Under the pieces are notes generated by a model, which did not search any database, had not been told where the DNA came from, and saw nothing but the letters and a program-made list of their open reading frames with translations. DNA of 38,333 nucleotides from an archaeon (GTDB lineage Archaea > Thermoproteota > Nitrososphaeria > Nitrososphaerales > Gagatemarchaeaceae), in the NCBI GenBank assembly GCA_021851265.1, contig JAJZIG010000005.1, positions 1 through 38,333 on the forward strand, given 5' to 3'. The translations under genes were made by a program, and so were the position numbers. Shown here one piece after another: positions 1 through 38,238 of the stretch. Every line of letters begins with the position of its first letter. Within the stretch, counting starts at the first letter, position 1.

Positions 1-950
1 TAGACCTCCTTCACCTTCCTGAACGACGTCTCGATCCCCCAACGCCTCCTGTACTCCTTCGGTATCTCCGCGACAAGGCTCATGGCGTTCCTCGCCTCGA
101 CGTTGGTGGCGAAGGGGATGAGCTTCCCCTTCTTCTCGCTCCAGCAGACCACCATGGTGAAGGACGCCTCCTCGACCTGGTGGCTGTCCCGGATGGAGAA
201 GGGCAACCGGCCCTCCCTCCCGAAGGTGTCCACCTCGCGCTGGACCCTCTCGTTGCAGACGCAGGGCATGACGAACTCCAGCCCGAGCCCCTTCAGCAGG
301 TTGATGCACTCCACGGTGAAGAAGGCCCTGTCGAGCAGGAGGAGCCTGACCTTCACCCCCCCGCCTCCCGGCCTCCTCTACCGGCTCCCTGACGACGTCG
401 ACCTTGACGTCCAGGAGGGTCACGGGCCTCGAGTAGACACAGAGCCTCACGCCGTCCTGGACGACGGATATGGTGGCGTGCTCGTAGAAGCGGTCCGTCC
501 CCCTCTCGTGCTTGCTCCTCGTCACGTACCTGTTGAACTCCCCGTAGTAGGGGACCTTGGTGTAGTCGACGGCGCAGGCGACGGGCCTGTGGAGCAGACC
601 GAGCCTGGACGCGACGGAGAGGACGGCGTCGTTGACCTCCCTCAGCCTCGAATCCCAGTCGGCACGGTCCAGCTTCTTCAGCCTGTAGAGGAACGCGCCT
701 CCGCAGGGGGAGTCGAGGCCGTACCTCAGCGCCAGGCCGTCCATGGTCGACTCGGCGTACCCTCCGCTCATGGAGAGCTGCATCAGCCCCGTGTAGACGA
801 CGTCCGGCCGGTAGTGGGCGTTGGGAGCTGAAGTGAGAGTCACGTATTTGTCAAACAGCTCCAACGCGAGGGAATATGCATGGAGGCACGCCCTCACGTC
901 TCGCATCCTCTTGCCGGGCATCCTGCCGAACAGTTGACTGGAGATCATGG
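1..950 (-). pseudogene. DDE transposase (IS4-superfamily type), frameshifted and cut by window edge
   Basis: Reading the minus strand from an ATG at 950 gives MISSQLFGRMPGKRMRD and continues to about position 360. It then resumes in another frame to position 1, where the window ends. The first part holds the likely first catalytic Asp (AVDYTKVPYYGEF). The second part holds the second Asp (LLLLDRAFFTVECI) and, near the window edge, a Y-R-E-K type signature with the catalytic Glu (YRRRWGIETSFRKVKE). The break is at a run of seven C on the plus strand (356-362, seven G in the coding strand); six would restore the frame. The fold and DDE order fit IS4-superfamily elements, but I cannot assign the exact family, and the terminal repeats were not identified. 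It is either a decayed copy, a sequencing slip, or a +1 frameshifting gene. Confidence 0.8.
356..362 (-). other. Seven-base homopolymer at the transposase frameshift
   Basis: A run of seven C on the plus strand lies exactly where the transposase reading frame breaks. Upstream of it the frame reads the first DDE Asp; one base fewer would join this to the frame holding the second Asp and the Glu. Confidence 0.7.
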
Positions 951-1040
951 GTGCCCGGGGGAGGGTACGCCTAACCGCACCCAGCTCAAGGAGGCTCTAC
1001 AACCGACTCAGTTTTCGATTGACTGTGCTGCTCAAAACGG

Positions 1041-1050
1041 TTAATACATA
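1041..1050 (+). promoter_or_regulatory. Likely TATA box for the surface protein
   Basis: The sequence TTAATACATA lies 34 nt before the ATG at 1079. That fits the spacing seen before other genes here and supports 1079 rather than GTG 1132 as the original start. Confidence 0.45.
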
Positions 1051-1131
1051 GGCTCGTCCGTTGCGGGTACGCAGGGATATGGCCTGATAAAGACCGGGTC
1101 AGCCCGCACCAGCGGTGCCTCAGTCGTCATA

Positions 1132-4065
1132 GTGGTCTTTCTCATCGCCACAGGTGTCGTCGGCATTGCCGGTCACGGAACCGGTCCCAAATCTCAGGCC
1201 GGTTCTGCGCCGACCCTGATTACCGCCGACAAGAACCGGAGCTCCGGGGGAGGGGATTCATCCGAGGCTCCCGCTCTTCTCGGTCCGCTCCCCGCTATCT
1301 TGAACGCCGCGCCCGCAGGCGCCTCGCCTGCCTCATGCTACGGACCGTGCACCCAAAACGGAATCTGGGCAGGCTGGCTGTTCTGCGGTCAGACGCTGAA
1401 TGCGTGGGCTGATTCATACGGCGCCGTGCACTACTTTTGCAATTACAATTCTGACCAACCCAATCCGAGCGCCACCTTCTCCGGCGTCAAAGCAAGTTGG
1501 AACCTTCCGGACGTACTGCCCACCCCCGCGCCCAGCGGCAGCGACCAGTGCACCTCGGCCGCGCCCTCCGGAGGCTACGAGTACCTTTACCAGTGGCTGG
1601 GCCTTGGGGGGGATGGGGACGCGTCCAGCATGACCACCAGTCCCCTCGTCCAGGCGGGGATCAGCGAAACTGTGGCCTGCACCGGGTCCAGCCTCAATGT
1701 GAGCTTCGAGCCCTGGTTCGAAGCTGTCTCCGAGGACCCCACCCCGAAAGCCTGCCCGTCAAACTCCGACGGCTCCTCAGGCAGCTCCTCTGGCAGCGTT
1801 GACGCCATCAAAGCAGGGATGAAGGTCAAGGTCTCGGTCGAAATCCCGCAGAACGACACGGCGAAACAGACGTTTGAGGTCAAATATGAAATTGAAGTGG
1901 ACGCCAGCAACGGAAGCCCGGTCTTCATATGCAATGAGGACGAGCAGGTTCATCTGGTGTTCCTTGGCAACTCGATCGAGATGGAATTGGAGGTCCCCTC
2001 GGCAGGTCTAATCGCCGGGGACAGCAGTCTCCCCCTGGGCAGCACAGACCCTGCCTGGGGGTGCCCATCCAACTCGAACGGGTTCTCCCTGACGCCGGCG
2101 TTCTCGGAGATAAACGTGACCAACTTCCAGTACGAAGGCGGTCCCCCGAGCCCAAACAACGTGTTCATCCCCGGGTTCCCCGGCGTGAGCAATAATCAAA
2201 AGCTGGACATGAACGGGTGCGACCCGGTGACGGGTTCCGTGACCCAGATCCCCTCCCCGCTGCTCGGGACCTATTTCACCGAGGACTACGGGGCGTCGCG
2301 GTACGTGAACTCGTACGGATACAGCTGCTACGCGACCCAGTGTTACTCTTACACTGGTTACTTCCCGGGATCCACGGTGACCGTCAGCCCCGGGGGGAGC
2401 ACGCCTGCATACTACCTCCTCGGGACAGGCTACAGCCCAGGCCTCGACGGGGCGTCTCCCATCGCTGCGACGACGGCCAATACGTCCTTGGTAATCGAGT
2501 TCGTCGGCACGTCGGAGACCTACACAACGACCACGACGGGCACTGGGACGAACAATTGCAACGATACCTTCGCACCCGTTTCTCTTCAATACCTGAGTCA
2601 GGGCGGCGGGTTCGGCCCCCCCGAGCTGTCGGTCACAGCCAAGGTGTGCACTCCGGTCACCCCCGGGTACGTCGTCTACGGGGTCGACTTCCAGCTCTGG
2701 TACGCGCCCTCGGCTACTCCCCAGGGCGGCCTCGGGTGCAGCCATTCTTCCTGCCTCAAGCTCTGGGACACGGGCGTGCTGTATAACCCGACCCTTCGGG
2801 TCTACAGCAGTGGTTCCGCCACCCTCGTCATCTGCAGCCCGGTCTATGTGGTGACCGGAACCTCTGCAACGTGCAAAGCGGCGGTCGCCGGCTCCTCCCC
2901 CACCGGGACCGTGACCTGGTCCGCGAGCGCGAAGGGCACGTTCTCACCGTTTCCTTCATGCGCGCTTTCGTCTGGTTCTTGCACAATCGGCTTTACTCCG
3001 ACCCTCACCCCCGCCGCCCCCTATTCGACCGTAACCGTCTTCGCGACATATGGAGGAGACTCGCAGAACGGGGGCAGTTCTGGTTCCTCCTCCCTGTTTG
3101 TGACTACCAAACAGGATTCCTCAACGAAGGTGGTCTGTGCGGCGTCATCATATGTCGGCTCTGCCGTGTCCGGGAGCTGTACCGTGACAGTGACCGGCAA
3201 TTGCCCATTCTTCCTCGGCTACTGCTTCCCCTCCCCCGCTGGGATAGTCAACTGGTCTTCCAACGGGACTGGGTCATTGGTGCCCGCCGACTGCTCACTC
3301 GTCTTCCCCCCCATCTGGCCTGGCATGGGAGAACCGCCCGGAAGTTGCACGGTACGCTTCACCCTGTCCCCCGCCTCGGGGACATCGTTCACAATCACTG
3401 GACTCTACGCGGGCGATTACCTCTACAAAGGATCCTCCGACACCGTTTCTCTGACTGCGCCCGCCAAGCCGGCGTCATCCACTTCAGCAAGCTGTACGCC
3501 TTCGTCCTTGACCGTCAGGGCCTCAACCACGTGCACCGCGAGGGTGACCGGCTCATCCCCCACAGGAAATGTCACTTGGTCCACAACCGGGATTTGGGAC
3601 TTCTCCTCGAGCTGGTGCACCCTGTCCGCGGGTTCGTGTTCTGTAACCTACACTCCGACAGTCCCTGCTTCTCCGGTAAACATTACAGCGACCTATTCGG
3701 GAGACTTGAATAACGGTGGCAGCTCGGGGACCTTCTCCCTGGCCGTCAGTTCCGTCACGACGACCTCCACGACTTCCGCAACTTCAACGACTTCCATGAC
3801 TCTCTCATCCGTCTCTACGACTTCCGTTACTCAGTCCACGGTCTCCAAGACCACAGGTAGCGGTTCGACATCCTCCGCGACCTCTTCGGGCACCGTCGCC
3901 ACGTCCACCGGCGTCTCGACAACCGGTTCAGCCACCTCGACCTCACCCCAATCCGGGGGGTCCTCCGCCGTGTCTGCAGCGCTATCTTTCGTTGCAGGGG
4001 TTTTAATCGCCAGCGTCGTATTCATGCTGCTCATTAGGCGGGGAATAGGGGTCAAGAAAGGATAG
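1132..4065 (+). CDS. Membrane-anchored surface protein with G1 (eqolisin-like) peptidase domain and Ig-like repeats
   Basis: The 977-residue reading frame from GTG 1132 lacks the front of a signal peptide. The open frame continues upstream, and an ATG at 1079 would give a perfect signal sequence if one base were added in its second or third codon. Residues about 75-330 follow the order of G1 glutamic peptidases: WAGW, a WLGLGGDG strand, SPLVQAG with Gln174 as the likely catalytic Gln, EPWFEA, and SIEMELEVPS with Glu283 as the likely catalytic Glu. Three Ig-like repeats follow (about 566-660, 665-773, 782-877), each with paired Cys and the pattern SPTG-VTWS...GDxxNGGSSG. Next come a Ser/Thr-rich stalk (878-945), probably glycosylated, and one C-terminal membrane helix with a basic end (RRGIGVKKG). 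Family members are acid-active endopeptidases; activity here is inferred. Confidence 0.75.
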   Translation: MVFLIATGVVGIAGHGTGPKSQAGSAPTLITADKNRSSGGGDSSEAPALLGPLPAILNAAPAGASPASCYGPCTQNGIWAGWLFCGQTLNAWADSYGAVHYFCNYNSDQPNPSATFSGVKASWNLPDVLPTPAPSGSDQCTSAAPSGGYEYLYQWLGLGGDGDASSMTTSPLVQAGISETVACTGSSLNVSFEPWFEAVSEDPTPKACPSNSDGSSGSSSGSVDAIKAGMKVKVSVEIPQNDTAKQTFEVKYEIEVDASNGSPVFICNEDEQVHLVFLGNSIEMELEVPSAGLIAGDSSLPLGSTDPAWGCPSNSNGFSLTPAFSEINVTNFQYEGGPPSPNNVFIPGFPGVSNNQKLDMNGCDPVTGSVTQIPSPLLGTYFTEDYGASRYVNSYGYSCYATQCYSYTGYFPGSTVTVSPGGSTPAYYLLGTGYSPGLDGASPIAATTANTSLVIEFVGTSETYTTTTTGTGTNNCNDTFAPVSLQYLSQGGGFGPPELSVTAKVCTPVTPGYVVYGVDFQLWYAPSATPQGGLGCSHSSCLKLWDTGVLYNPTLRVYSSGSATLVICSPVYVVTGTSATCKAAVAGSSPTGTVTWSASAKGTFSPFPSCALSSGSCTIGFTPTLTPAAPYSTVTVFATYGGDSQNGGSSGSSSLFVTTKQDSSTKVVCAASSYVGSAVSGSCTVTVTGNCPFFLGYCFPSPAGIVNWSSNGTGSLVPADCSLVFPPIWPGMGEPPGSCTVRFTLSPASGTSFTITGLYAGDYLYKGSSDTVSLTAPAKPASSTSASCTPSSLTVRASTTCTARVTGSSPTGNVTWSTTGIWDFSSSWCTLSAGSCSVTYTPTVPASPVNITATYSGDLNNGGSSGTFSLAVSSVTTTSTTSATSTTSMTLSSVSTTSVTQSTVSKTTGSGSTSSATSSGTVATSTGVSTTGSATSTSPQSGGSSAVSAALSFVAGVLIASVVFMLLIRRGIGVKKG

Positions 4066-4326
4066 GGGCGTCAACTGCGGGCCGGTGCCTTCGGCTGGAT
4101 GAAGTCAATCGCCTTGCTCTCCTGGTGGTCGCCGATATGAGTCTCCGGCCCTGGAACGACATCGAGGCACAACCGATGATGAAAGAGAACGCCTCTTGCC
4201 CACCGAAGACTTGTAGTCGCGAGTCAGAGGACATGCGAAAGTCTTCATACCGATAGCGGACGCCACCAAGAAGCAGATCGCCCAGAAGAGGATGGACCAC
4301 GTCGGGCCAGACGGTGGCCGGGGGGA
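4066..4326 (-). other. Gap with possible gene remnant
   Basis: No intact gene is visible. On the minus strand, fragments in two frames look protein-like: VFGGQEAFSFIIGCASMSF, then ETHIGDHQESKAIDFIQPK with a stop soon after. A similar AFSF-containing fragment occurs at about 15110-15220. I do not recognise the family; it may be chance. Confidence 0.25.
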
Positions 4327-4674
4327 CTAATGTGCTCCGCAGCCGCAGGAATCCGAACGAACGTTTGGATTGTCTATCTTGAAACCGGTCCTCTGCAGGC
4401 TTTCAACGAAGTCAATCTTCGACCCCCTGAGCACCTCAGCATCAGCCTTTGCGGCCATGACCCTGAGTCCGCCCACCTCTTCGACGACGTCTGCTTCACC
4501 CGGGAGCTTTTCGAGGCTCAACGCGTATCTGTACCCACCACTGCATGCACATCCGCCCCCCTGATAGACCTCGATTTTCAGATAGGAATCGGTAGCCTTC
4601 TCCTGTTCCAGCACCTGGCCTATCTTCTCGCGGGCTTCGGGCGTGAACACTACGAGCGGCTGTAACTCTTGCAT
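4327..4674 (-). CDS. A-type iron-sulfur cluster carrier (IscA/ErpA/HesB family)
   Basis: This 115-residue protein has the usual length of A-type carriers, which bind and hand Fe-S clusters to client apoproteins in the cytoplasm. The ligand cysteines are visible: a GGGCACSGGY motif (Cys42, Cys44) in place of the common GGCSG, and a C-terminal CGCG (Cys110, Cys112). I chose ATG 4674 over the upstream GTG 4683 because a TATA-like box centred near 4703 lies 29 nt before it, as at other leaderless genes in this window. The gene stands alone; an insertion sequence ends about 50 bp upstream and has left the promoter intact. The client is unknown. In this genome, heme, aconitase-X and other Fe-S enzymes would be candidates for need. 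Confidence 0.88.
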   Translation of the reverse strand: MQELQPLVVFTPEAREKIGQVLEQEKATDSYLKIEVYQGGGCACSGGYRYALSLEKLPGEADVVEEVGGLRVMAAKADAEVLRGSKIDFVESLQRTGFKIDNPNVRSDSCGCGAH

Positions 4675-4697
4675 ATCAAGCACAGTTGCGGCTTTTC

Positions 4698-4707
4698 CTA
4701 TTTAATT
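4698..4707 (-). promoter_or_regulatory. TATA box of the A-type Fe-S carrier
   Basis: On the minus strand this reads AATTAAATAG, centred 29 nt before ATG 4674. The insertion sequence begins only 16 bp beyond it. Confidence 0.55.
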
Positions 4708-4722
4708 CTTTAGCTGACGGGG

Positions 4723-4739
4723 GCCTTGCGACAAAATTA
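4723..4739 (+). repeat. Left terminal inverted repeat of the insertion sequence
   Basis: The 17 bases match 5961-5977 exactly in reverse complement. The transposase stop codon (TAA on the minus strand, 4737-4739) lies inside it. Confidence 0.9.
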
Positions 4740-5858
4740 CTTCCGTAGCGGGCTGAGGAACTCTGGTTGCACGTACGCCATGTAGACACACCTCCTGATG
4801 TTGTAGGTGTACACCCGGAGGGACCCCGCGGCGTCCCTCCTCCAAGTGAGCCTCCTCCTGATCTTCCAGGGGAACCTCGTCTTGTCCACCGAGTTGACTG
4901 TCTCGGATATGGAGCGCATGTGGTACTCCCTCAGCCACCCCTGGGGGTGGTCGACGAATCCGTGGTGCATGTTGTTCCACGAGGGGACGCCGTGACTGTC
5001 GAATGTCGCGTTGACTCTCGGGAAAAAGCATGGCCTGGCCCCGTACTGCGACACCAGGGCGCAGTTGTCCCTGGTCGCGTGCAGGGCGTCCCCGAGCACT
5101 GCATCCATCCTTGGACAATTGATTCGGGTCTGGGAGAGGACCCCAGGGAACATGGAGAGCTCCCCGACCGAATGGTCGGAGGTCGTCTCGAACCCTGCTA
5201 CGAGCTTTGTATGCACTCCGACCGATTCCACTGTGTACTGGAAGTCGCTCCTGGATGATGGCCAGCTGCTGGACGAGGCTGACGACGACGAGGAGTTGGC
5301 TGCCTCCTTCTTCCTCTGCTCCGAGCGGACGGACTCGTAGTTTGTCTTGCTCGACGTCGGGTTGCCTGTCCCGTCCACCGAGAGCGTTGTCTCGCCTGCG
5401 TTCCCGTACTCGTTGGTGATCCTGAAGACCTCCCGGAGAACCTCCGACACGGGACCGGGGTCATACCCCCTCTCGATGGTCTTGTAGCTGAACTCGTTCG
5501 CTATCCCCAGCTTCTCCTTGAAGAGGTACACCAGGCCAGCCGCCACCCGGTCGGAGACCCCGAAGTACGACTGGAGGAGGAGCGCCTTGGCCACATCCCC
5601 CGCAGGGAAGGGGGGTCTTCCTCTCCTCCCCATCCTCGACCTCTCGGGCATGCGGGATGAGGCCAGGTTCACGAACCTCCTGATCAGGCCGAGCGTGTCA
5701 GACATCTCGTGGAGCTGAGCCTCGTTGTAGGAGGCCCAGTCGAGGGACCTCTTCGGCCGCCCGTCGTAGTGGAATGTCCCTGACCTGACCGACTTGACCA
5801 GCTCCCGCAGCTCGTCGGTGGTGTGCCTCTCGGTCAACAGAGAGGAGCGGTGCGTCAC
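4737..5858 (-). CDS. Intact DDE transposase of the insertion sequence
   Basis: This 373-residue protein catalyses DNA cutting and joining at the element ends. The likely catalytic triad is Asp162 (LSVDGTGNPTSS), Asp257 (LGDALHATRDN) and Glu319 (RSISETVNSVDKTRFP), in the order and spacing of RNase H-like DDE transposases. The C-terminal basic stretch (WKIRRRLTWRRD) fits the helix after the Glu. An odd Ser-rich, low-complexity stretch lies at residues 189-201 between the first and second Asp, perhaps a flexible linker. The family resembles archaeal IS4/IS5-like elements; I cannot fix the ISfinder group. The frame is open from ATG 5858 to a stop in the left terminal repeat. Confidence 0.87.
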   Translation of the reverse strand: MTHRSSLLTERHTTDELRELVKSVRSGTFHYDGRPKRSLDWASYNEAQLHEMSDTLGLIRRFVNLASSRMPERSRMGRRGRPPFPAGDVAKALLLQSYFGVSDRVAAGLVYLFKEKLGIANEFSYKTIERGYDPGPVSEVLREVFRITNEYGNAGETTLSVDGTGNPTSSKTNYESVRSEQRKKEAANSSSSSASSSSWPSSRSDFQYTVESVGVHTKLVAGFETTSDHSVGELSMFPGVLSQTRINCPRMDAVLGDALHATRDNCALVSQYGARPCFFPRVNATFDSHGVPSWNNMHHGFVDHPQGWLREYHMRSISETVNSVDKTRFPWKIRRRLTWRRDAAGSLRVYTYNIRRCVYMAYVQPEFLSPLRK

Positions 5859-5949
5859 GCTTCATTTAACCCCGAGCGTGTCGGCGCCTGAACAGGCTTG
5901 TAACAGGGACCGCATCAACGGGCAGATATCGTCGGCCGGTCAAGAAGAA

Positions 5950-6129
5950 TCAGGGGAGCTTAATTTTGTCGCAAGGCTGAAGATCGGGCGTCATCGGCCG
6001 CCCCTCGTCGAGAGGCGCGGACAACTCCTCCAGCCCCTCCGTCAGCTCCTCCCGCCGGGAGGCGGATAAGAGCCCGAACGGCCTTGGCGAAGTAGCCTGG
6101 CCCTTGCGTCGGTTCTTACCCGCGGCCAT
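5950..6129 (-). CDS. Small hypothetical protein, 3' end replaced by the insertion sequence
   Basis: A 59-residue frame starts at ATG 6129 (MAAGKNRRKGQATSPRPFG) and runs through an acidic stretch (SRREELTEGLEELSAPLDEG). Its last eight or so codons and stop lie in the terminal repeat and inside the element. I do not recognise it. Codon use looks protein-like, but it has no clear promoter at the usual spacing. If real, the insertion has changed its C-terminus. Confidence 0.3.
   Translation of the reverse strand: MAAGKNRRKGQATSPRPFGLLSASRREELTEGLEELSAPLDEGRPMTPDLQPCDKIKLP
5961..5977 (-). repeat. Right terminal inverted repeat of the insertion sequence
   Basis: Exact reverse complement of 4723-4739. 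Confidence 0.9.
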
Positions 6130-19684: not shown

Positions 19685-20101
19685 CTACCGAAGCCTGATC
19701 GTTCCCGTCCCTGCATCCACTTCCACCGCGTCTCCCGACCTCATGCGGCTGGGGGCGTCGGACCATAGCATGACGGGGATCTCAACGCCGTAGAGGACCT
19801 TGGCCACCACGCTTCCTATCACCGCTGCCGGGTCGACGGAGGATGTGACCACGGCCGCAGGTGCGTTGCCGAGCCTGACGGTCTCCAGGAACCAGGCGGA
19901 AGCCGTCGTGGATCCTTTGCCGTACGGGTAGACGAGGACCGACCCTTTCACGTTCTTCCCGAGCAGGTCGCTATGCAGGTCGGTCACGTTGCCATTCCGC
20001 GGGTCGACTCCATGGGCGAACGTGAACGCTTTCTTGGAGACGAGGGCGAGACCTCTCGCCTTCCGGCCGGTCATCACCCTGACGGAGTACGACTCGGTCA
20101 T
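19685..20101 (-). CDS. Aconitase X swivel domain / phosphomevalonate dehydratase small subunit
   Basis: The 138-residue protein matches the DUF126 (aconitase-X swivel) family, with VYPYGKGSTTASAWFLE and the ending of a small beta-barrel. In archaea this subunit pairs with the large AcnX subunit to form phosphomevalonate dehydratase, which makes trans-anhydromevalonate 5-phosphate for isoprenoid lipids. Its start codon overlaps the stop of the large-subunit gene by 4 bp, so the two are translated together. The assignment to isoprenoid synthesis follows from archaeal homologs; bacterial relatives act on hydroxyproline. Confidence 0.9.
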   Translation of the reverse strand: MTESYSVRVMTGRKARGLALVSKKAFTFAHGVDPRNGNVTDLHSDLLGKNVKGSVLVYPYGKGSTTASAWFLETVRLGNAPAAVVTSSVDPAAVIGSVVAKVLYGVEIPVMLWSDAPSRMRSGDAVEVDAGTGTIRLR

Positions 20102-21306
20102 GACGTGGCCTCAGCTATCATGTCCTTGAGCGGGGCGTAGCGCATTCTTATCTCCCCCTCCGACATGATGGTCTCCGCCAGTTTCGCCGAGTTGGTCATG
20201 ACGGTCCTGAAGCCCATCTCCTTCAGCGGCGAGATTTCCCCATCGGTGGAATGGGTCAGCCTGGCGCCCGAGGCTTCTATGGCGCTCCTGATCCCAGACC
20301 CTGTCGCTTCGTCGTAGGCCTGCTTCGAGGTGTACACATACATGCTCGACCCGCGTCGGAGCTTCCTGCCGGCCAGCGCGCCGGCCAGCACCTTCAGCTC
20401 GTCGAGCGACAGTTGCGGTACGCCGAGAGCCACAAGGTCCGCCTTCTCGTCAGTCTGGTTCAGCTCGCCTTCGACTTCCTCCATCTCCTTCCTTCCTATT
20501 TCGATGACCTCGACCTTCTCTCCGCCCGTCGCCTTCGCCACCGAGTCGCAGCCCGGGGTGAAGCCGACGAAGTGGATCATGTTCACCGGTCCGCCCGTGG
20601 CCGCAGCCGAACCCAGGTGCTTCAGGCTGTCGAACGTCGAAGACTTCGGAAGGTCGGAGAGGACGGGCACTCTCGAGCCGCAGTGCCTTCCGATGTAGAA
20701 CCCGGCGCTCCTGTAGTCCAGGTCGGACGGGTCGCGCACGGAGAGCCTGAAGGCCACCCGGGCGACACGGTTCTCGTCAAGCAGCATGCCATATCTGGGC
20801 GTGAGTCCCGTCAGGGCGCAGGCCAGATCTAGGCCGGAGGTGATCTTGTTCGTCCTGCACCCGAGCAACGAATTGGCATAGACGACGGCGTTCGACTCCG
20901 CCCATGCGAGAATCTCGCCTCCGTTCGGGATGTTGCACGTCTGGTACTGGACGCAGGTCCAGCACCCCGTCCCACCCAGCGCTTCATACGCCCTGAAGAG
21001 CCTGAACTGCTTTCCGGCGAACTCCTCTGGGACGCCGAAGCTCTTCCAGTTCTGTGGGTCGATGCTGGCCGGGTCGACGCTCGTCTTCACGGCGAACCTC
21101 CCTCCGCCGTCCCGGAACTTCTCGAGCATTTCGATGCCAGCCTCGTGGAGGCTGCTGTAGTGGGCCAGCACGTGCGCAGACGAGATGGGTACAAGCGAAT
21201 CGGCTTCCATGGCATCGCCGACCTTCGCGAGTATCTCCATTGCGAGCTGCCGCGCCTCTCCTTCCTCGCCCCTTAGAGCCCCCTCCTGCTGTCGGTTCAG
21301 CTGCAT
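20098..21306 (-). CDS. Aconitase X catalytic subunit / phosphomevalonate dehydratase large subunit
   Basis: The 402-residue protein is a DUF521 aconitase-X catalytic chain. Candidate Fe-S ligands are the cysteines of GTGCWTC, of NSLLGCRTNK and of FTPGCDS. The AWAESNAVVYANS segment is a family signature. With the overlapping small subunit it would dehydrate mevalonate 5-phosphate to trans-anhydromevalonate phosphate in the cytoplasm. The start is ATG 21306, with CTTTACA about 29 nt upstream as a weak TATA box. Other mevalonate genes are not in view, so a hydroxy-acid dehydratase role in the neighbouring catabolic island is the main alternative. Confidence 0.9.
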   Translation of the reverse strand: MQLNRQQEGALRGEEGEARQLAMEILAKVGDAMEADSLVPISSAHVLAHYSSLHEAGIEMLEKFRDGGGRFAVKTSVDPASIDPQNWKSFGVPEEFAGKQFRLFRAYEALGGTGCWTCVQYQTCNIPNGGEILAWAESNAVVYANSLLGCRTNKITSGLDLACALTGLTPRYGMLLDENRVARVAFRLSVRDPSDLDYRSAGFYIGRHCGSRVPVLSDLPKSSTFDSLKHLGSAAATGGPVNMIHFVGFTPGCDSVAKATGGEKVEVIEIGRKEMEEVEGELNQTDEKADLVALGVPQLSLDELKVLAGALAGRKLRRGSSMYVYTSKQAYDEATGSGIRSAIEASGARLTHSTDGEISPLKEMGFRTVMTNSAKLAETIMSEGEIRMRYAPLKDMIAEATS

Positions 21307-29050: not shown

Positions 29051-29957
29051 GGTGCTCGTGGGGACGCGCGGGAGCGCGCTCGCCCTCGCCCAGACAAGGC
29101 TTGTGGTGGACCTCCTCCACGGGAAGACAGAGGCCGAGCTGGTGATGGTGCCGCTGAAGACCTCTGGGGACGCCCTCCCCCACGAGAGGCTCGTGACCGA
29201 CGGGAAGACGGCGTTCACAGGGGATATAGACAGAGAGCTGGCAGAAGGCCGCATAGACATCGCGGTGCACAGCATGAAGGACCTCCCTCTGCTCACTGAC
29301 GAACGGCTGGTCATCGGCGCCACCCCGAAGAGGGGCGACCCCAGGGACGCGCTGGTGTCACCCTCAGGCGCTACCCTGGGCCGGCTGAGGAAAGGCGCGC
29401 GCATAGGGACCTCGAGCGTCAGGAGGATGTCTCAGCTTCTTGCGCTCAGGGGGGACATCGAAGTCGTCGAACTGCGGGGGAACGTCGACACCAGGCTGAG
29501 GAAAATCGAGGAGCGGGGGCTCGACGGCGCGGTGCTGGCTGCGGCCGGGCTCCATCGGCTGGGCCTCGGCTCGAGGATAACCCAGGCCTTCGGCGTCGAG
29601 GAGGTCGTCCCCGCGGTCTGCCAGGGGACACTGGCTGTCGAGGCAAGGGCGGGGGACAGCGATGTCCTGGCGATGCTGGAGGCGATCGACGACCCTGACA
29701 CCAGGGCGTCCAGCGAGTGCGAAAGGGCGTTCTCGGAAGAGCTAGGAGGGGACTGCGACGTCCCTTTGGGAGCGTACGCTACGGTCGCCCCGGGCAGGAT
29801 GGTCGCCATCGGCCTCGTGGCCGATCCGCTAGGGAAGAGGTCGGCCAGGGCCGAGGTCGAAGGGGACGGAAGGAACCCGAAGGCCCTGGGGAGGGAGCTG
29901 GCAAGGAAGGTCAAGGAGAGAGGCGGGGCGAAGATCATGGAGGGGATTGCAGGTTGA
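29040..29957 (+). CDS. hemC: Porphobilinogen deaminase (hydroxymethylbilane synthase)
   Basis: HemC joins four porphobilinogens into hydroxymethylbilane. The 305 residues begin with VLVGTRGSALALAQ; HSMKDLP and the Arg-rich IGTSSVRR segment bind the growing chain, and the Cys in GGDCDVPLG (near 239) carries the dipyrromethane cofactor. It overlaps the end of hemA and is followed by hemD, whose start overlaps its stop. GTG 29040 is preferred for its ribosome binding site; 29031 would add three residues. Confidence 0.96.
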   Translation: MRDRVLVGTRGSALALAQTRLVVDLLHGKTEAELVMVPLKTSGDALPHERLVTDGKTAFTGDIDRELAEGRIDIAVHSMKDLPLLTDERLVIGATPKRGDPRDALVSPSGATLGRLRKGARIGTSSVRRMSQLLALRGDIEVVELRGNVDTRLRKIEERGLDGAVLAAAGLHRLGLGSRITQAFGVEEVVPAVCQGTLAVEARAGDSDVLAMLEAIDDPDTRASSECERAFSEELGGDCDVPLGAYATVAPGRMVAIGLVADPLGKRSARAEVEGDGRNPKALGRELARKVKERGGAKIMEGIAG

Positions 29958-30709
29958 CCTCCCAGCACGCGGTGCACAGAGTGGTCGTGGCGCGGTCCAG
30001 GGAGGGGAACGAAGAGCTGCAGGCCATGCTCGCCGCGTCAGGGGTCGAAGCGGCCGGGGTGGAGACGGTCAGGTTCGAGGCGCCCGAAGACTGGTCAGCC
30101 GTGGACAAGGCGCTAGCCGGGGTCGGGGACTTCGACTGGGTGGTCCTGACGTCACCGAGGGCCGTGGCTGTCCTGGGGGAGCGGCTCAGGAAGTCTGGCG
30201 GGAGAGGGGCCCTCCCGAAGTTCGCCGCTGTGGGGCCGAGGACCGCAGCTGGGCTCAGGGACTTCGGGCTCGAGGCGAGCTTTGTCCCCGACAGGTTCCT
30301 CACCGCTCAGCTGGGCGAGACGCTCCCCTTAGGCCGGGGGAACAGGGTCCTCCTGTTCAGGGCGGACATCGGGGACAAGGCGCTGACGAAAACCCTGGAA
30401 GACAGGGGGTTCGAGGTCTCCGAGGTGGCGGCATACCGGACTCTGCCCGAAGGAGGGGAGCTGGACCCCGCCGCCGTCGAGGGGGCAGACCTTGTTGCGT
30501 TCGCGAGCCCTTCTGAAGTCAGGGGGTTCGAGTCGCGGCTCGGTCCCGACAGGATGGGCAGTGTCACAGGGAGGGCGACGGCTGTGTGCATCGGGCCCGT
30601 GACGGCGTCGGCCGCCAGGAGTGCAGGGTTCGGGTCGGTGGTGTTCCCGGGGCGACACACGATTGACGCCCTGGCAGCGAAGATAGTGGAGCTGGCGACC
30701 CATGTCTGA
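29954..30709 (+). CDS. hemD: Uroporphyrinogen-III synthase
   Basis: HemD closes hydroxymethylbilane to uroporphyrinogen III, inverting ring D. The sequence of 251 residues shows the weakly conserved two-domain pattern: VVVARSREGNEELQAML at the start, VLTSPRAVAVLGERL, then AVGPRTAAGLRDFG, and LVAFASPSEVRGFE with CIGPVTASAARSAGF at the end. The start TTG overlaps the hemC stop (TTGA), and the stop overlaps the hemB start by 8 bp. The context between hemC and hemB makes the call firm although the family is divergent. Confidence 0.94.
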   Translation: MTSQHAVHRVVVARSREGNEELQAMLAASGVEAAGVETVRFEAPEDWSAVDKALAGVGDFDWVVLTSPRAVAVLGERLRKSGGRGALPKFAAVGPRTAAGLRDFGLEASFVPDRFLTAQLGETLPLGRGNRVLLFRADIGDKALTKTLEDRGFEVSEVAAYRTLPEGGELDPAAVEGADLVAFASPSEVRGFESRLGPDRMGSVTGRATAVCIGPVTASAARSAGFGSVVFPGRHTIDALAAKIVELATHV

Positions 30710-31697
30710 CGAACCGAGGGTCAGGCCGGAGCGAAGGGGGAGGAGGCTCAGGAGGACCGAGCCCATGCGGAGGATGCTCGACGAGACGAGGCTCCACAAG
30801 GACATGTTCGTTGCCCCCGTGTTCGTGGTCGAAGGCGAGGGTAGGGCCGAAGAGATTGACGGCATGCCTGGGGTCTTGAGGTACTCGGTGGACCGGCTGC
30901 CGACCTACTTCGAGAGGCTCGTCAGGGCAGGGATCCGGAGCGTGCTGCTCTTCGGGGTGCCAGGCCACAAAGACGACCAGGGGACGGGGGCCTACGCCAG
31001 GGACGGCATCGTTCCCAGGGCGATGTCATCCATCAGACAGTCGTTCCCCGAGCTGGTTGTGATGGCGGACGTCTGCCTCTGCGAGTACACCTCGCATGGC
31101 CACTGCGGGGTGCTGCGCGGCCGGGAGGTCGACAACGACGGGACCCTCCCCCTCCTCTCCAGGGCAGCCGTGGAGTACGCCCGGTCTGGGGCGGACGTCG
31201 TCGCCCCCAGCGCCATGATGGACGGACAGGTGCTAGCCATCCGGAGGGCCCTCGATGAGGCCGGCTTTGACGACGCCGTGGTGATGGGCTATTCGGCCAA
31301 GCACGCCTCGGCTTTCTACGGGCCATTCAGGAACGCGGCCGGTTCTGCCCCGTCGTTCGGGGACAGGCGCGGGTACCAGATGCAGCCCGGGAACAGGCGA
31401 GAGGCGCTCAGAGAGGTGGAGGAGGACATCAGGGAAGGTGCAGACATCGTGATGGTGAAGCCAGCGCTGGCATATCTGGACGTGATCTCTGAGGCGAGAC
31501 GAAGGTTCGAAGTCCCTCTGGCAGCCTACAACGTGAGCGGCGAGTATTCGATGCTGAAGGCCGCCGCTCTGAACGGGTGGCTGGACGAGAAATCCGCGGC
31601 CCGCGAAGTGCTCACCGGCATCAGGAGAGCGGGCGCAGACCTGATCATCACATACTTCGCCGAGCAGGCAGCAGGGTGGATCAAGGAGGGATGGTGA
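30702..31697 (+). CDS. hemB: Porphobilinogen synthase (delta-aminolevulinate dehydratase), zinc type
   Basis: HemB joins two 5-aminolevulinate molecules into porphobilinogen. The 331 residues carry the two active-site lysines, in YSAKHASAFYGPFR and in VMVKPALAYLD. The cysteine-rich metal loop DVCLCEYTSHGHCG marks the zinc-dependent type. The end of the gene overlaps the hemQ start region, where AAGGAGGG (31683-31690) serves as ribosome binding site. Confidence 0.97.
   Translation: MSDEPRVRPERRGRRLRRTEPMRRMLDETRLHKDMFVAPVFVVEGEGRAEEIDGMPGVLRYSVDRLPTYFERLVRAGIRSVLLFGVPGHKDDQGTGAYARDGIVPRAMSSIRQSFPELVVMADVCLCEYTSHGHCGVLRGREVDNDGTLPLLSRAAVEYARSGADVVAPSAMMDGQVLAIRRALDEAGFDDAVVMGYSAKHASAFYGPFRNAAGSAPSFGDRRGYQMQPGNRREALREVEEDIREGADIVMVKPALAYLDVISEARRRFEVPLAAYNVSGEYSMLKAAALNGWLDEKSAAREVLTGIRRAGADLIITYFAEQAAGWIKEGW
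31683..31690 (+). promoter_or_regulatory. Ribosome binding site deciding the hemQ start
   Basis: AAGGAGGG abuts ATG 31691 but sits 6 nt before ATG 31697, so 31697 is the better start. Confidence 0.6.
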
Positions 31698-32413
31698 TGC
31701 AGGAAGCATCGGCACATCAAGAACTTGAGGCCGGTTCGCGGAAGGTGATGAGGTACGTCTTCTTCAAGGCGGTCAGGGAGTGGAGGTCTCTCGCGGAGGA
31801 CGAGAAGAAAGCCGGCGCCGACGAGTTCCTCGCTGTCCTGGACAAGTACTCGAAGACGCTGGACCTCAGATGCTACAGCCTGGTCGGGACCAGGGCGGAC
31901 GCCGACTTCATGATCTGGGTCGTGGCCCAGGACCTGGGCTCGGTGCAGGACCTTGCCTCGGAGCTCCTTGCCACCGGGCTCGGCAGGCGGCTAGACGTCG
32001 CCTACTCCTTCCTCGCAATGACAAGGAAGTCGAAGTACCTCGGCTCGCACAGGCACCCCGGGCAGGAAGGAGCTGAAGACGAGCCCCGGCGGAACGCGAA
32101 GTACGCCTTCGTCTATCCTCTGGTGAAGAAGAGGGAGTGGTACAAGGTCCCCTTCGCCGAGAGGCAGAGGATAATGGCAGAGCACTTCAGGATCGGACAC
32201 AAGTACCCTGCGATCAAGATCAACACGGGCTACTCCTTCGGCCTCGACGACCAGGAGTTCGTCCTCGCGTTCGAGGGGGACGACCCGGGGGAGTTCCTGG
32301 ACCTTGTCGAAGAGCTGAGGTCGTCGGACGCGAGCAAGTACACCGAACGGGAGACGCCCATCTTCACCTGCGCCTCGGTCGACCCGGCGACAATGATCAG
32401 GCTCCTGGGGTAG
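31697..32413 (+). CDS. hemQ: Coproheme decarboxylase / chlorite dismutase-family protein
   Basis: The 238-residue protein matches the HemQ (ChdC) branch of the chlorite dismutase family. In the coproporphyrin-dependent route it turns coproheme into protoheme using peroxide. Residues known to matter in bacterial ChdC have counterparts: Tyr140 in FVYPLVKK (the radical tyrosine of the YPMSK motif), Lys144, and His163 in MAEHFRIGHKY as the heme ligand. The family signature FGLDDQEFVLAFEGDDP follows. The Arg of true chlorite dismutases is not apparent. It lies between hemB and hemL with overlapping codons, so it belongs to the heme operon. Confidence 0.93.
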   Translation: MQEASAHQELEAGSRKVMRYVFFKAVREWRSLAEDEKKAGADEFLAVLDKYSKTLDLRCYSLVGTRADADFMIWVVAQDLGSVQDLASELLATGLGRRLDVAYSFLAMTRKSKYLGSHRHPGQEGAEDEPRRNAKYAFVYPLVKKREWYKVPFAERQRIMAEHFRIGHKYPAIKINTGYSFGLDDQEFVLAFEGDDPGEFLDLVEELRSSDASKYTERETPIFTCASVDPATMIRLLG

Positions 32414-32415
32414 TG

Positions 32416-33708
32416 GTGCCAGTGAAGGACAGGAAATCGGCGGCCCTCTACGAGAGGGCTTCGAAGGTCATGGTCGGAGGCGTGTCGAGCCCTGTCAGGG
32501 CGTTCAAGTCGGTGGGCGGGACGCCGAAGTTCATCCGCAGAGGGAAGGGCTCCAGCATGTGGGACGCGGACGGCAACAGGTACGTCGACTACGTCTGCTC
32601 CTGGGGGGCGCTGATCCACGGCCACGCGAACCCCGCCGTGTCGGCGTCCGCCCGCGCCGCCATGTCTTCGGGGACCAGCTTCGGGGCGCCCACGGAGACA
32701 GAGGTGCGCCTCGCGGAAAGGGTCCGAAGGTCCATGCCGTCGATCGAGAAGGTCCGCTTCGTGAACTCCGGGACCGAAGCCACCATGTCGGCCCTCCGCG
32801 TAGCCAGGGGACACACCGGGAGGAGCATCCTGGTGAAGTTCGAAGGATGCTACCACGGGCACGCAGACCCGTTCCTCACCAAGGCAGGCTCCGGGATGGC
32901 CACCCTGGACATCCCCGTCTCTGCGGGGGTGACCGCGGGCTCCGTGGGCGACACCGTGACCCTCCCCTTCAACGACATCGAAGCCGTCGAATCGGAGTTC
33001 AGGAAAGAGGGAGACAAGATAGCCGCGGCCATAGTCGAACCCGTCGGCGGCAACATGGGCGTCGTCCTCCCGGCGGACGGCTTCCTCCCCGCGCTGCGGA
33101 AGGCATGCACGGACAGCGGCGCCCTCCTCCTCTTCGACGAGGTAATCACAGGGTTCAGGGTCGGGCCCGGAGGGGCCCAGGGACTGCTGGGGGTCGAGCC
33201 GGACCTCACCACCCTTGGGAAGGTCATCGGCGGAGGCTTCCCGGTGGGGGCCTACGGCGGCAGGGGCGAAGTCATGGCCGAGGTCGCGCCCGAGGGCCCG
33301 GTGTACCAGGCAGGGACCCTTTCAGGCAGCCCCGTCGCCATGGCCGCGGGGCTGCGCGCCCTGGAGCTCCTCACGAAGGGAGGCTATCGGAGGCTGGAGG
33401 AGGCGTCGGCGGCCCTCCAGGAAGGGATCGAGTCCGGCGCAGAGAAAGCAGGGGTAGCGCTGACGACGAACAGGATGGGGTCGATGCTCGGCGAGTTCTT
33501 TTGCGAGGGGCCGGTCGTGGACTTCACCACCGCCAGCAAGACTGACACCGGCGCCTACGGCAGGTACTTCTGGGAGATGCTCGGCTCCGGGGTCTATCTC
33601 CCTCCGTCGGCCTTCGAGACGGCGTTCGTCTCGCTGGCTCACTCGGACGCGGACGTAGAAAGGACGGTCAGCGCCGCAGGGAAGGCGTTCAGAGCGGTGA
33701 AGAAGTGA
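32416..33708 (+). CDS. hemL: Glutamate-1-semialdehyde 2,1-aminomutase
   Basis: HemL makes 5-aminolevulinate from glutamate-1-semialdehyde with pyridoxal phosphate. The 430 residues include the N-terminal GGVSSPVRAF motif, the cofactor-binding FDEVITGFR segment and the active lysine in TLGKVIGGGFPVGAYGG. GTG 32416 is two bases after the hemQ stop; GTG 32413 and 32422 are alternatives. The stop codon abuts the hemE start. In many genomes hemL lies next to hemB, and here hemQ is set between them. Confidence 0.96.
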   Translation: MPVKDRKSAALYERASKVMVGGVSSPVRAFKSVGGTPKFIRRGKGSSMWDADGNRYVDYVCSWGALIHGHANPAVSASARAAMSSGTSFGAPTETEVRLAERVRRSMPSIEKVRFVNSGTEATMSALRVARGHTGRSILVKFEGCYHGHADPFLTKAGSGMATLDIPVSAGVTAGSVGDTVTLPFNDIEAVESEFRKEGDKIAAAIVEPVGGNMGVVLPADGFLPALRKACTDSGALLLFDEVITGFRVGPGGAQGLLGVEPDLTTLGKVIGGGFPVGAYGGRGEVMAEVAPEGPVYQAGTLSGSPVAMAAGLRALELLTKGGYRRLEEASAALQEGIESGAEKAGVALTTNRMGSMLGEFFCEGPVVDFTTASKTDTGAYGRYFWEMLGSGVYLPPSAFETAFVSLAHSDADVERTVSAAGKAFRAVKK

Positions 33709-34734
33709 ATGCGGAGCACTTTCGTGGACGCATGCAGGAGGAAGCAGGTGGACCACACGCCGGTCTGGTTCATGAGGCAGGCAGGGAGGTACCTCCCCAG
33801 CTACCGGAAGCTCAGGTCCCAGAAGGGGATGCTGGAGATAGCCAAGGACCCCCGCCTCGCTTCGGACGTGACAGTCGACCCTGTGAGGGAGCTCGGGGTG
33901 GACGCGGCCGTGGTCTTCGCCGACATAATGCTCCCCTTGGAAGGGGTCGGCGTCAAGTTCAGGATCGAGGAGAACGTGGGGCCGATCATAGAGCGGCCGA
34001 TCGCCGGGAGGGAGGACGTGGAGGCGCTGGCAGACTTCGACCCCGACGCGCATGCCGGGTACGTCCTCGAGACGATAGCCCTGGCCGTGGAGAAGCTGGC
34101 CGGGACCCCCCTCGTGGGGTTCTCCGGGGCCCCCTTCACCCTGGCGAGCTACCTGGTCGAGGGAGGTCCGAGCAGGGAGTTTCAGAAGACCAAGAAGATG
34201 ATGTACTCCGACCCGGAGGCATGGGACCTCCTGATGTCGAAGCTCACCAGGCTCGTGGCGGCGTACCTCGGGGCCCAGGTCAGGAGCGGGGTGGACGCGG
34301 TCCAGGTGTTCGACAGCTGGGTGGGCTGCCTCTCCCCCGAAGACTACCGCAGGTACGTCAGGCCCTACACCTCGGCGGTCTTCGGCGGGGTGGCCGGGTC
34401 GGTCCCGACGATCCACTTCTGCGCTAACTCTTCGGCCCTCGTGGAGGAGTTCGCGGCGACCGGGGCCGAGGTCATCAGTGTGGACTGGAGGGTCCCCGTA
34501 GACAGCGTGTGGGACCGCGCTGGCAAGGACAAGGGGGTGCAGGGGAACTTGGACCCTGTCCTGGCGGCGACCGGCGGAGGGGCGATGGAGGACGCGGTCG
34601 CAGGGATCATGAGGAAGGCATCCGGGAGGCGGGGGCACATATTCAACCTCGGGCACGGCGTCCTGCGTGACACGCCCCCCGAAAACCTCAGAAGGGTGGT
34701 GCAGATGGTCCAGGGATGGAAAGGAGGGGCCTGA
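33709..34734 (+). CDS. hemE: Uroporphyrinogen decarboxylase
   Basis: HemE removes the four acetate carboxyls of uroporphyrinogen III to give coproporphyrinogen III. The 341 residues show PVWFMRQAGRYLPSYR, the catalytic Asp in VVFADIMLPLEGVGVKF, GFSGAPFTLASYLVEGG and VFDSWVGCLSP. ATG follows the hemL stop directly. The gene marks the operon as using the copro- or protoporphyrin branch. The siroheme branch, common in archaea, would instead start with uroporphyrinogen methylation. Confidence 0.97.
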   Translation: MRSTFVDACRRKQVDHTPVWFMRQAGRYLPSYRKLRSQKGMLEIAKDPRLASDVTVDPVRELGVDAAVVFADIMLPLEGVGVKFRIEENVGPIIERPIAGREDVEALADFDPDAHAGYVLETIALAVEKLAGTPLVGFSGAPFTLASYLVEGGPSREFQKTKKMMYSDPEAWDLLMSKLTRLVAAYLGAQVRSGVDAVQVFDSWVGCLSPEDYRRYVRPYTSAVFGGVAGSVPTIHFCANSSALVEEFAATGAEVISVDWRVPVDSVWDRAGKDKGVQGNLDPVLAATGGGAMEDAVAGIMRKASGRRGHIFNLGHGVLRDTPPENLRRVVQMVQGWKGGA

Positions 34735-34735
34735 G

Positions 34736-35632
34736 ATGAAGGGGATACTGGTCATGGCCTACGGAGGGCCCAGATCCTTGGACGAGGTCGAGGCATACTA
34801 CACGCACATCAGAAGAGGGAGGAGTCCGTCCAAGGAGCAGATGGACGACCTCCTGGCCAGGTACAAGGCGATAGGGGGGAAGTCCCCTCTCCTGGAGACG
34901 ACCGAGAAGCAGGCTGCGGGACTGGAGCGGGCGCTCGGGCCAGAGGGGCCCAGGGTGTACGCGGGGATGAAGCATTCGCCACCGTTCGTCGCGGACGTGG
35001 TCCGCAGGGCGAGCTCAGAAGGGGTCACCGAGCTGCTCTGCATCGTGCTCGCGCCCCATTATTCGAAGATGAGCACGGTCGGGTACGCTAAGGCGGTGGA
35101 CGAGGCCAAAGCCTCCCTGGCGAGGAAGCTCGACGTGACGTTCGTGGAGTCGTGGTACGACAACCCCGGCCTGATCTCCATGTGGGCGGGGAGGGTGAAG
35201 GAGGCGGCCAGGACCGCCGGAGACGACGCGTCGCTGGTCTTCTCTGCGCACAGCCTCCCCGAGCGGACAATCAGGGAGGGCGACCCCTACAGAGACCAGC
35301 TGCTGGCGACGTCCAGGCTGGTCGCCGAGAAGCTGGCCTGGAGCGACTGGAGCTTCGCGTTCCAGAGCCAGAGCAAGACAGGCGAGCCGTGGCTCGGCCC
35401 CGACATACTGGACCACCTCCAGGCTCTCTATGAAAAGGGGAAGAGGCGGTTCATCTCGGCCCCCATCGGGTTCGTCTCGGACCACCTCGAGATCCTCTAC
35501 GACCTCGACATCGAGTGCCGGGAGTGGGCGGAGAAGAGGGGCGCCGAGCTCGTCAGGTGCAGGTCCCCCAACGGCAGCAGCGAGATGATCGCTGCGCTGG
35601 CGGGGATAGTCAGGCAGAACGGGTTCGCCTAG
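34736..35632 (+). CDS. hemH: Ferrochelatase
   Basis: HemH inserts ferrous iron into a porphyrin. With HemQ in the same operon, coproporphyrin III is the more likely substrate than protoporphyrin. The 298-residue protein has the family start LVMAYGGP, RYKAIGGKSPL, the active-site His in FSAHSLPE, FQSQSKTGEPWLGPD and the C-terminal Glu region GFVSDHLEILYDLDIE. ATG 34736 comes one base after the hemE stop. It is soluble with no membrane anchor and no Fe-S cysteines near its end. It closes the operon; CgoX is not next to it. Confidence 0.95.
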   Translation: MKGILVMAYGGPRSLDEVEAYYTHIRRGRSPSKEQMDDLLARYKAIGGKSPLLETTEKQAAGLERALGPEGPRVYAGMKHSPPFVADVVRRASSEGVTELLCIVLAPHYSKMSTVGYAKAVDEAKASLARKLDVTFVESWYDNPGLISMWAGRVKEAARTAGDDASLVFSAHSLPERTIREGDPYRDQLLATSRLVAEKLAWSDWSFAFQSQSKTGEPWLGPDILDHLQALYEKGKRRFISAPIGFVSDHLEILYDLDIECREWAEKRGAELVRCRSPNGSSEMIAALAGIVRQNGFA

Positions 35633-35820
35633 GCGGCCGGCCCAAGTCGCCCGCGACGTCGGCCAGAGAGATCACAAGAAGAAAGTCAGACAGAACCAGG
35701 ACCCTGTCAAGCAGGCGCAGCTGGTGTCTTCTCCCATGACGTAGTCGCTCAGAAGGCCGCCCTGGAAGGAGAAGAGAAGAGGCTCCTCGACGCCGTGCGC
35801 GGGAAGGCCAAAGAGATAGG
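35633..35820 (+). other. Short gap with protein-like remnant next to the tRNA 3' end
   Basis: Two frames look like pieces of one old gene: HKKKVRQNQDPVKQAQLV (about 35660-35735) and AQKAALEGEEKRLLDAVRGK (about 35748-35805), the second reading into the tRNA 3' end. I do not recognise it. Confidence 0.25.
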
Positions 35821-35918
35821 CGCCGGGTGTAGGATTCGGACCTACGCGACCGTTGATGGTCACGGGCTTGCTTGCCGCTGTCTCAAGGCCCGCGCAATAA
35901 CCACTCTGCCAACCCGGC
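35821..35918 (-). tRNA. tRNA-Ser(TGA) with a 13-nt intron
   Basis: The minus strand folds as a class II tRNA: acceptor GCCGGGT with ACCCGGC, discriminator G, D stem GCA with TGC, anticodon stem CGGGC with GCCCG, a long variable arm (GACC with GGTC), and T arm GTAGG-TCCGAAT-CCTAC. The anticodon TGA with the G discriminator and class II arm indicates serine. The intron (35869-35881) lies at the canonical 37/38 position. CCA is not encoded. The mature tRNA is 85 nt. Confidence 0.92.
35869..35881 (-). other. tRNA intron with bulge-helix-bulge splice sites
   Basis: CTTG of the exon pairs with CAAG of the intron, forming the 4-bp central helix. The flanking three-base bulges AGA and CAA would be cut after their second base, which gives exactly this 13-nt intron. 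The intron-side hairpin is minimal, so this is a relaxed motif. Confidence 0.8.
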
Positions 35919-35943
35919 CCGGTTCTTGGCGCTCGGCGACTCT

Positions 35944-35957
35944 CTTCTTATCCTTTA
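35944..35957 (-). promoter_or_regulatory. Possible promoter of the tRNA
   Basis: The minus strand reads TAAAGGATAAGAAG, about 26-39 nt before the tRNA 5' end at 35918. Confidence 0.35.
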
Positions 35958-35969
35958 GCAGGGAGCGAG

Positions 35970-35977
35970 TTCATAAG
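35970..35977 (+). promoter_or_regulatory. TATA box of the GNAT gene
   Basis: TTCATAAG is centred 25 nt before ATG 35999. Confidence 0.45.
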
Positions 35978-35998
35978 CGGAGCACATACCGGCTCCCC

Positions 35999-36841
35999 AT
36001 GGGTATCCGGGTCCGCCCAGCCAGGCTCTCCGACAAGGAGCCGTTGATGAGCTTCATCAGAGGCGTCTGGGGCGGGCACGACTACATCCCCAGGGTCTGG
36101 GGCGAATGGTTCAGGGACAAGGCCAACCCCATGTACGTCGTAGAGGTCGACGGGGTCCCCGTGGGGATGAACAGGATGACGATGCTGGAAGACGGGTCGG
36201 CGTGGCTGGAGGGGGTGAGGGTGCACCCCGACCATCGCGGAAAGGGGCTGGCGACCATGCTGGGGGAGAACTCCTTGAGGGTGGCCAGGAAACGAGGCGC
36301 TATGGCGTTCAAGCTGGCCAGCGGCTCGCGCAACAAAAGGGCGCACAGGCAGATCGCCAGGCTGGGGTTCACCGAGGTGACCCGGTTCAGCGTCTACGAG
36401 CCCGTGAAGGGGGCTCTGGCCAGGGACGGAGCGAGGCGGGTCGGCCCAGAGGACCTCGACGAGGCGGAGCGCCTGATGCGTAGGACGAAGGAGTTTGAGA
36501 TCGGGCACGGCGTCTACTGGAACAACTGGAGAGCGGCCCTGATGACCCCCGGGGTGACCAGGCGCCTCGTGGAGGAGGGGGCTGTGTGGAGGCTGGGCGG
36601 CGCGGTAGCCGTCACCAAGCCTGGAGGGGAAGGGAGGGACTGGGAGCAGATAGGCTTCCTCGGCGGGGAGCCGACGGATGCGGTCCGCCTGGCGAGGTGC
36701 CTCTTTGGGAGGAGGAAAGGCGCTTCCGAGCGCTGGGCGTACGTCTCACAGGGCTCTCCCCTGATCCATGCCCTGAGGACCTCCGGGTTCGCGCGGCGCG
36801 TCTCCGTCGTCCTTTTCGAGTGGAAGGCAGCCAAAGGTTAA
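35999..36841 (+). CDS. GNAT-family N-acetyltransferase
   Basis: The 280-residue protein has a GNAT domain in its first half: VRPARLSDKEPL at the start, the strand WLEGVRVHPDHRGKGLATML with the acetyl-CoA loop HRGKGLA, and the last-strand pattern RLGFTEVTRF. The C-terminal 130 residues are a less conserved extension that may add a second GNAT-like half or a substrate domain. The acceptor is unknown. ATG 35999 is chosen from the TATA box 25 nt upstream; the frame is open further upstream across the tRNA. Its TAA stop lies inside the TATA box of the next gene. Confidence 0.88.
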   Translation: MGIRVRPARLSDKEPLMSFIRGVWGGHDYIPRVWGEWFRDKANPMYVVEVDGVPVGMNRMTMLEDGSAWLEGVRVHPDHRGKGLATMLGENSLRVARKRGAMAFKLASGSRNKRAHRQIARLGFTEVTRFSVYEPVKGALARDGARRVGPEDLDEAERLMRRTKEFEIGHGVYWNNWRAALMTPGVTRRLVEEGAVWRLGGAVAVTKPGGEGRDWEQIGFLGGEPTDAVRLARCLFGRRKGASERWAYVSQGSPLIHALRTSGFARRVSVVLFEWKAAKG

Positions 36842-36844
36842 TTC
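36836..36844 (+). promoter_or_regulatory. TATA box of the 3-hydroxyacyl-CoA dehydrogenase
   Basis: GGTTAATTC is centred 28 nt before ATG 36868 and includes the stop codon of the GNAT gene. Confidence 0.55.
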
Positions 36845-36867
36845 GCTCTTTCTGGGCACGCGCGAGC

Positions 36868-38146: not shown

Positions 38147-38168
38147 GGCCGCGGGGAGGCCGCTCGTT

Positions 38169-38177
38169 CCTTTAACC
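38169..38177 (-). promoter_or_regulatory. TATA box of the YbgC-like gene
   Basis: GGTTAAAGG on the minus strand is centred 27 nt before ATG 38146. Confidence 0.55.
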
Positions 38178-38199
38178 TGAGCGGGCGTCCCGATTAAAA

Positions 38200-38211
38200 C
38201 CGTAAATACGG
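38200..38211 (+). promoter_or_regulatory. Inverted repeat in the promoter of the last gene
   Basis: CCGTA-AA-TACGG contains the TATA-like GTAAATAC, about 32 nt before ATG 38239. It could be an operator over the TATA box. Confidence 0.4.
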
Positions 38212-38238
38212 TAAGAAACGCGCCAGGATTCGTTCAAA

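Follow-up and report, generated by a model that had tools for sequence, protein, structure and literature searches.

The G1 family is known for small, secreted enzymes of the acid type. The scytalidoglutamic and aspergilloglutamic peptidases (MEROPS G1; PDB 1s2b, 1y43 and 3trs) are fungal, secreted proteins of ~200 aa with no Ig arm and no anchor. In scytalidoglutamic peptidase (SGP), Q53 and E136 form the catalytic pair (PMC6154417). Bacterial and archaeal G1 peptidases were reported in 2010 (PMC3009609). The accessible part of that report covers prokaryotic members with the Gln/Glu dyad, namely pepG1 of Alicyclobacillus and the archaeal G1 peptidases of Acidilobus and Caldivirga, and describes no tethered form of them (PMC3009609). 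In acid-soil Lutacidiplasmatales, A4 peptidases rank among the most prevalent peptidases outside the cell (PMC9287336).

The window analyzed here is the whole stretch of 38,333 nt of archaeal DNA. A preliminary description of it had proposed a G1 peptidase-like domain on an Ig-repeat, membrane-anchored archaeal protein, and the archaeal origin of this G1-bearing protein was supported. As in the fungal enzymes, the catalytic Gln/Glu order and most invariant positions are present, and the dyad is also that of the prokaryotic members. Unlike the fungal enzymes, which keep D43 and P72, the window protein has both replaced, and it carries an Ig arm and a C-terminal membrane segment. The view of G1 peptidases as an essentially fungal family is out of date: besides the two reports on prokaryotes (PMC3009609, PMC9287336), Peptidase_A4 (PF01828) matches were found in 21 of 61 genomes (the window's own and 60 relatives), often several per genome. 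Archaeal G1 peptidases are thus already known and are common in this thaumarchaeal genus. What looks new here is the predicted membrane-tethered architecture within a known enzyme family.

Reading frame and layout of the protein

The ORF listing and translation gave an unbroken frame that opens after an in-frame TAA (1042) and closes with a TAG (4063-4065). The gene had been placed at 1079-4065; its intact frame to 4065 held, but the ATG at position 1079 belongs to another frame (ATG GCC TGA). The residue numbers used then match a start at GTG1132. No ATG, GTG or TTG was present in frame between the TAA at 1042 and 1132, and a hydrophobic, signal-like core already begins upstream of GTG1132. 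Because none of these codons precedes the core, the start codon is uncertain. For practical use it would be CTG1084 or GTG1132, of which CTG1084 would give the better signal peptide. The features were as follows.

1084..4065, + strand: whole gene, 993 codons from CTG1084 plus stop; 977 aa from GTG1132
1084..1185, + strand: signal-peptide-like segment LIKTGSARTSGASVVIVVFLIATGVVGIAGHGTG, Kyte-Doolittle maximum 2.53 at residues 11-30
1186..1353, + strand: pro-region or linker of ~55 aa, between signal and catalytic domain
1354..2319, + strand: G1 / Peptidase_A4 domain, divergent and with insertions (PF01828, hhalign, conserved residues, fold match 3trs)
1651..1653, + strand: predicted catalytic Gln, Q190 (from CTG1084) = Q174 (from GTG1132) = SGP Q53
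1978..1980, + strand: conserved non-catalytic Glu, E299 (from CTG1084) = E283 (from GTG1132) = SGP E132
1990..1992, + strand: predicted catalytic Glu, E303 (from CTG1084) = E287 (from GTG1132) = SGP E136
2320..2808, + strand: Cys-containing middle region, no Pfam match
2809..3111, + strand: Ig-like repeat 1 (Big_3_5), 26.1 bits alone
3112..3444, + strand: Ig-like repeat 2 (Big_3_5, partial match), 17.6 bits
3445..3747, + strand: Ig-like repeat 3 (Big_3_5), 37.4 bits alone, above cut-off
3748..3978, + strand: Ser/Thr stalk, 77 residues, 66% S+T
3979..4062, + strand: C-terminal transmembrane segment and RRGIGVKKG tail, hydropathy 2.73 at residue 966, the protein's maximum

Hydropathy supported an N-terminal signal-like segment and a C-terminal membrane segment with a positive tail, which would suit a type I membrane-anchored surface protein. 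The segment at 1186..1353 may be pro-region-like, as in the preproenzymes of the family. The middle region had no homologue among the 61 genomes and may hold the last G1 strand. Each part of the proposed arm was recovered. Pfam matched the three Ig-like repeats to Big_3_5 (PF16640; 35.6 bits for the protein, cut-off 35.5), with repeats 1 and 2 individually below the cut-off; the Ser/Thr stalk was present, and the terminal hydrophobic helix was followed by RRGIGVKKG. Ig-repeat proteins of the Big_3_5 type are numerous in the genus in general (G023, G016, G003 and others), and their open frames reach 3212 aa.

The architecture had been called unusual, and the comparison agreed. A C-terminal membrane segment was found in 0 of 135 distinct other G1 frames, a sample weighted towards the best-scoring, secreted members. 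The literature search turned up no account of an archaeal G1 peptidase in tethered form, though absence there is no proof. The closest layouts are in G1 proteins of the same genus or family (L006/L086, L011/L085 and L038), in which, as in the window, the G1 domain is followed by a Ser/Thr-rich linker and/or Ig-like domains; in L006, L011 and L038 the partners are stretches of Ser/Thr and domains of the Ig-like or MG2 type, and L038 also has Big_3_5. Unlike the window protein, these relatives have near-canonical NWSGY, WVGIDG and SAEWI motifs and no C-terminal membrane segment. The best pairwise match to the window domain (27% over 103 aa) is L014, a G1 protein of the same order but a different family, and both have the IGG, QAG and WFEA variants. 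L014 differs in being 277 aa long, without Ig arm or anchor.

The divergent G1 domain and its active site

The isolated domain scored 26.6-27.4 bits against PF01828 (cut-off 22.3 bits) and 24.6 bits in the genome search, so the N-terminal G1 assignment of the preliminary description was borne out. The Pfam scan of the whole protein gave no G1/Peptidase_A4 match; the domain was detectable only when scanned alone. Sub-scans indicated that nearly all of the score came from 1465-1737, the Gln-bearing half. The Glu half had no significant score from the Pfam profile, and E303 was placed by MAFFT and hhalign alignment. A broad G1 HMM, built from 140 G1 domains with the window left out, gave 16.6 bits for the domain versus a maximum of 9.0 in 2000 shuffles. 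In hhalign against 14 G1 proteins, the domain scored 33.2 over 200 colinear columns (hhalign's own probability, 27%), and the best of 300 shuffles scored 28.7 over 43 columns. A narrow HMM of close, insertion-free G1 proteins did not separate the domain (4.4 bits) from 1000 shuffles (best 6.2), indicating that the domain is divergent. The S.E...E.PS pattern in its second half was present in 0.1% of shuffles. Identity to other G1 domains was about 15-27%, and phmmer against the PDB found no sequence match for the domain. Judged by the Pfam score, the shuffle tests and the conserved residues, the G1 homology is taken as distant but established. A KEOPS Pcc1 candidate was rejected, its weak match being to a Gly/Ser linker.

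SGP numbering was fixed by a PDB alignment of a typical relative (Q53 in ILQTG; A131-E132-F-I-I-E136). Three alignments agreed in placing Q190 at Q53, E299 at E132 and E303 at E136. The catalytic pair had been proposed as Gln174 and Glu283. Gln174 stood, as it corresponds to SGP Q53, but Glu283 corresponds to E132, and by alignment the catalytic Glu is Glu287. Among 141 alignment rows (140 homologues and the window), Gln was present at the Q53 position in 139 and Glu at the E136 position in 138. The window retains W6, G8, W39, G41, G44, Q53, G55, W67, E69, E132 and E136, including six of the eight supporting residues G8, G41, D43, G44, G55, W67, E69 and P72. D43 is replaced by Gly, which is also found in 16 other rows. 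P72 is replaced by Ser, found in no other row, and 138 rows have Pro. G43 is considered acceptable, and P72 replacements are considered probably harmful (PMC6154417). Some divergent G1 homologues vary at other positions: Tyr stands in place of the catalytic Gln in L017, and E132 is replaced by Gln and Arg in L036 and L037, which retain the E136 Glu. These three proteins are possible inactive or altered paralogues, judging from their residues.

The structure of the domain alone was modeled using AlphaFold2 with an alignment of 80 related rows (G1 proteins). The model was all-beta and of low confidence (mean pLDDT 57.9, pTM 0.60). Its best PDB match was 3trs, aspergilloglutamic peptidase (E 0.0087, prob 0.99, TM 0.55 by target); ranks 2 and 3 were B. 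subtilis YncM and 1y43, again aspergilloglutamic peptidase (prob 0.97). A first, longer model (493 aa, mean pLDDT 53) matched legume lectins best, with 3trs at rank 27. The predicted fold is consistent with the proposed G1 fold; since both low-confidence models were built on G1 rows, the match is not independent evidence for the assignment.

Predicted function and competing explanations

The gene product is likely a cell-surface, membrane-anchored glutamic peptidase. Its frame, domains, conserved residues and hydrophobic ends were all observed in the DNA; its activity, acid optimum and substrate are predictions. The chain would be exported by the Sec route, and the G1 beta-sandwich would fold outside the cell. 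By homology and conserved residues, Gln190 (Q174) and Glu303 (E287) would work as they do in scytalidoglutamic peptidase, activating water against peptide bonds. Spacing of the catalytic domain off the membrane would fall to the three Ig domains and the Ser/Thr stalk, which are probably glycosylated, and the positively tailed C-terminal helix would be the anchor. The likely job would be digestion or processing of proteins at the surface, so that peptides stay near the cell. As the G1 domain is mounted on an Ig arm, a stalk and an anchor, the host probably digests protein while the enzyme stays attached to the cell.

The same layout would also suit a surface protein with a G1 fold but no remaining peptidase activity, an adhesin or structural protein with G1 as a binding module on the Ig arm. 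P72S, D43G, the large insertions and the strong divergence point that way; Ig repeats with a stalk are typical of surface proteins, of which the genus has many with Big_3_5, and the Tyr of L017 suggests that dead homologues probably exist. However, Q53, E136, W67 and E69 are all kept at about 20-25% identity, and their retention despite such low identity argues for selection on the active site. D43G, moreover, occurs in 16 other homologues and is acceptable (PMC6154417). We therefore regard an inactive surface protein as unlikely. It is highly improbable that the G1 similarity arose by chance in a Ser/Thr-rich surface protein with some other function. The whole-protein Pfam scan misses G1, the narrow HMM does no better than shuffles and no PDB sequence matches, but the isolated domain lies above the Pfam cut-off, beats 2000 and 300 shuffles in the two broader tests, has colinear conserved residues over its entire length and has a G1 peptidase as its top fold match.

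The enzyme might instead be secreted, the stalk and anchor being removed by processing. Stalk cleavage is known generally in surface proteins, and the other G1 proteins collected all end without an anchor. The tail, however, fits a transmembrane segment well and ends in a positive stop-transfer stretch, and no sorting or cleavage motif was identified, so that release is quite unlikely. The tethered glutamic peptidase can also be read more narrowly, as a distinct, divergent archaeal G1 branch mounted on Ig arms. With a substrate loop altered by P72S and insertions, such a branch would be adapted to processing particular proteins, of the surface or of neighbours, instead of bulk digestion, possibly not only under strongly acid conditions; we hold this narrower reading tentatively and think it somewhat unlikely. 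A tethered G1 peptidase of whichever kind would show how an uncultured soil and groundwater thaumarchaeal lineage keeps protein digestion at the cell, and the window protein would test the G1 mechanism with D43 and P72 replaced.

The domain had also been taken as a hint of life at low pH, which the gene does not imply. No thermopsin or S53 (pro-domain) match was found in the window's genome by profile search; both families are found in acid-soil archaea (PMC10640624, PMC9287336). The same-genus relatives with G1 genes came from groundwater, and the relatives overall from groundwater and soil. The G1 domain is strongly acidic (34 Asp/Glu, 9 Lys/Arg), a composition that would fit an acid enzyme and proves nothing. 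Life at low pH is possible.

Distribution and genomic surroundings

Of the 300 genomes of the order searched, three contained the full window protein: the window's own, G018 and G008. The copies in G018 and G008 are identical to the window's. Transfer between species was considered as an explanation and rejected. Over 14 kb elsewhere, G018 and the window's genome match at 100% identity. G008 is a sister genome, 81-83% identical, in which two small contigs at 99.98-100% stand out: window 103-4739 and 29125-38333 are near-identical to G008:C20 and G008:C12. Beside these contigs, G008 has an 81-83% version of the neighbouring DNA that is its own, and its copy of the gene is therefore probably mis-binned. 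At the syntenic place in G008, after the fumarase gene, there is neither G1 nor transposase. No relatives were found in viral contigs. A tree placement of the window next to L039 was discarded for its very long branches.

Mobile elements lie on both sides of the gene.

1-950, - strand: frame-broken IS4/ISH3-like transposase, named by look, upstream of the G1 gene
4724..5977, - strand: IS5-family element, transposase at 4737-5858, 16-bp inverted repeats CCTTGCGACAAAATTA; outside the G1 gene

A whole copy of the left-hand transposase is at L029:5083-6217, and the listed ORF at 82-831 (+ strand) is antisense of the broken one. The IS5 element is absent at the same base in G018 (empty site) and inverted in G008. 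The window and G018 do not have the same flank to its right, so a rearrangement or misjoin of the window contig at 4724 is possible. The G1 gene is unaffected by this possible misjoin, being identical in the window and G018.

The genes around the G1 gene have metabolic functions (carbamoyltransferase, amidohydrolase, amidase, dehydrogenases) and point to no functional link with it. Farther along, an Aconitase X match (399 bits) at window 20101-21306 is surrounded by aldehyde dehydrogenases, an enolase-superfamily protein, an alcohol dehydrogenase and a transporter, which is suggestive of a sugar-acid or hydroxyproline-type pathway.
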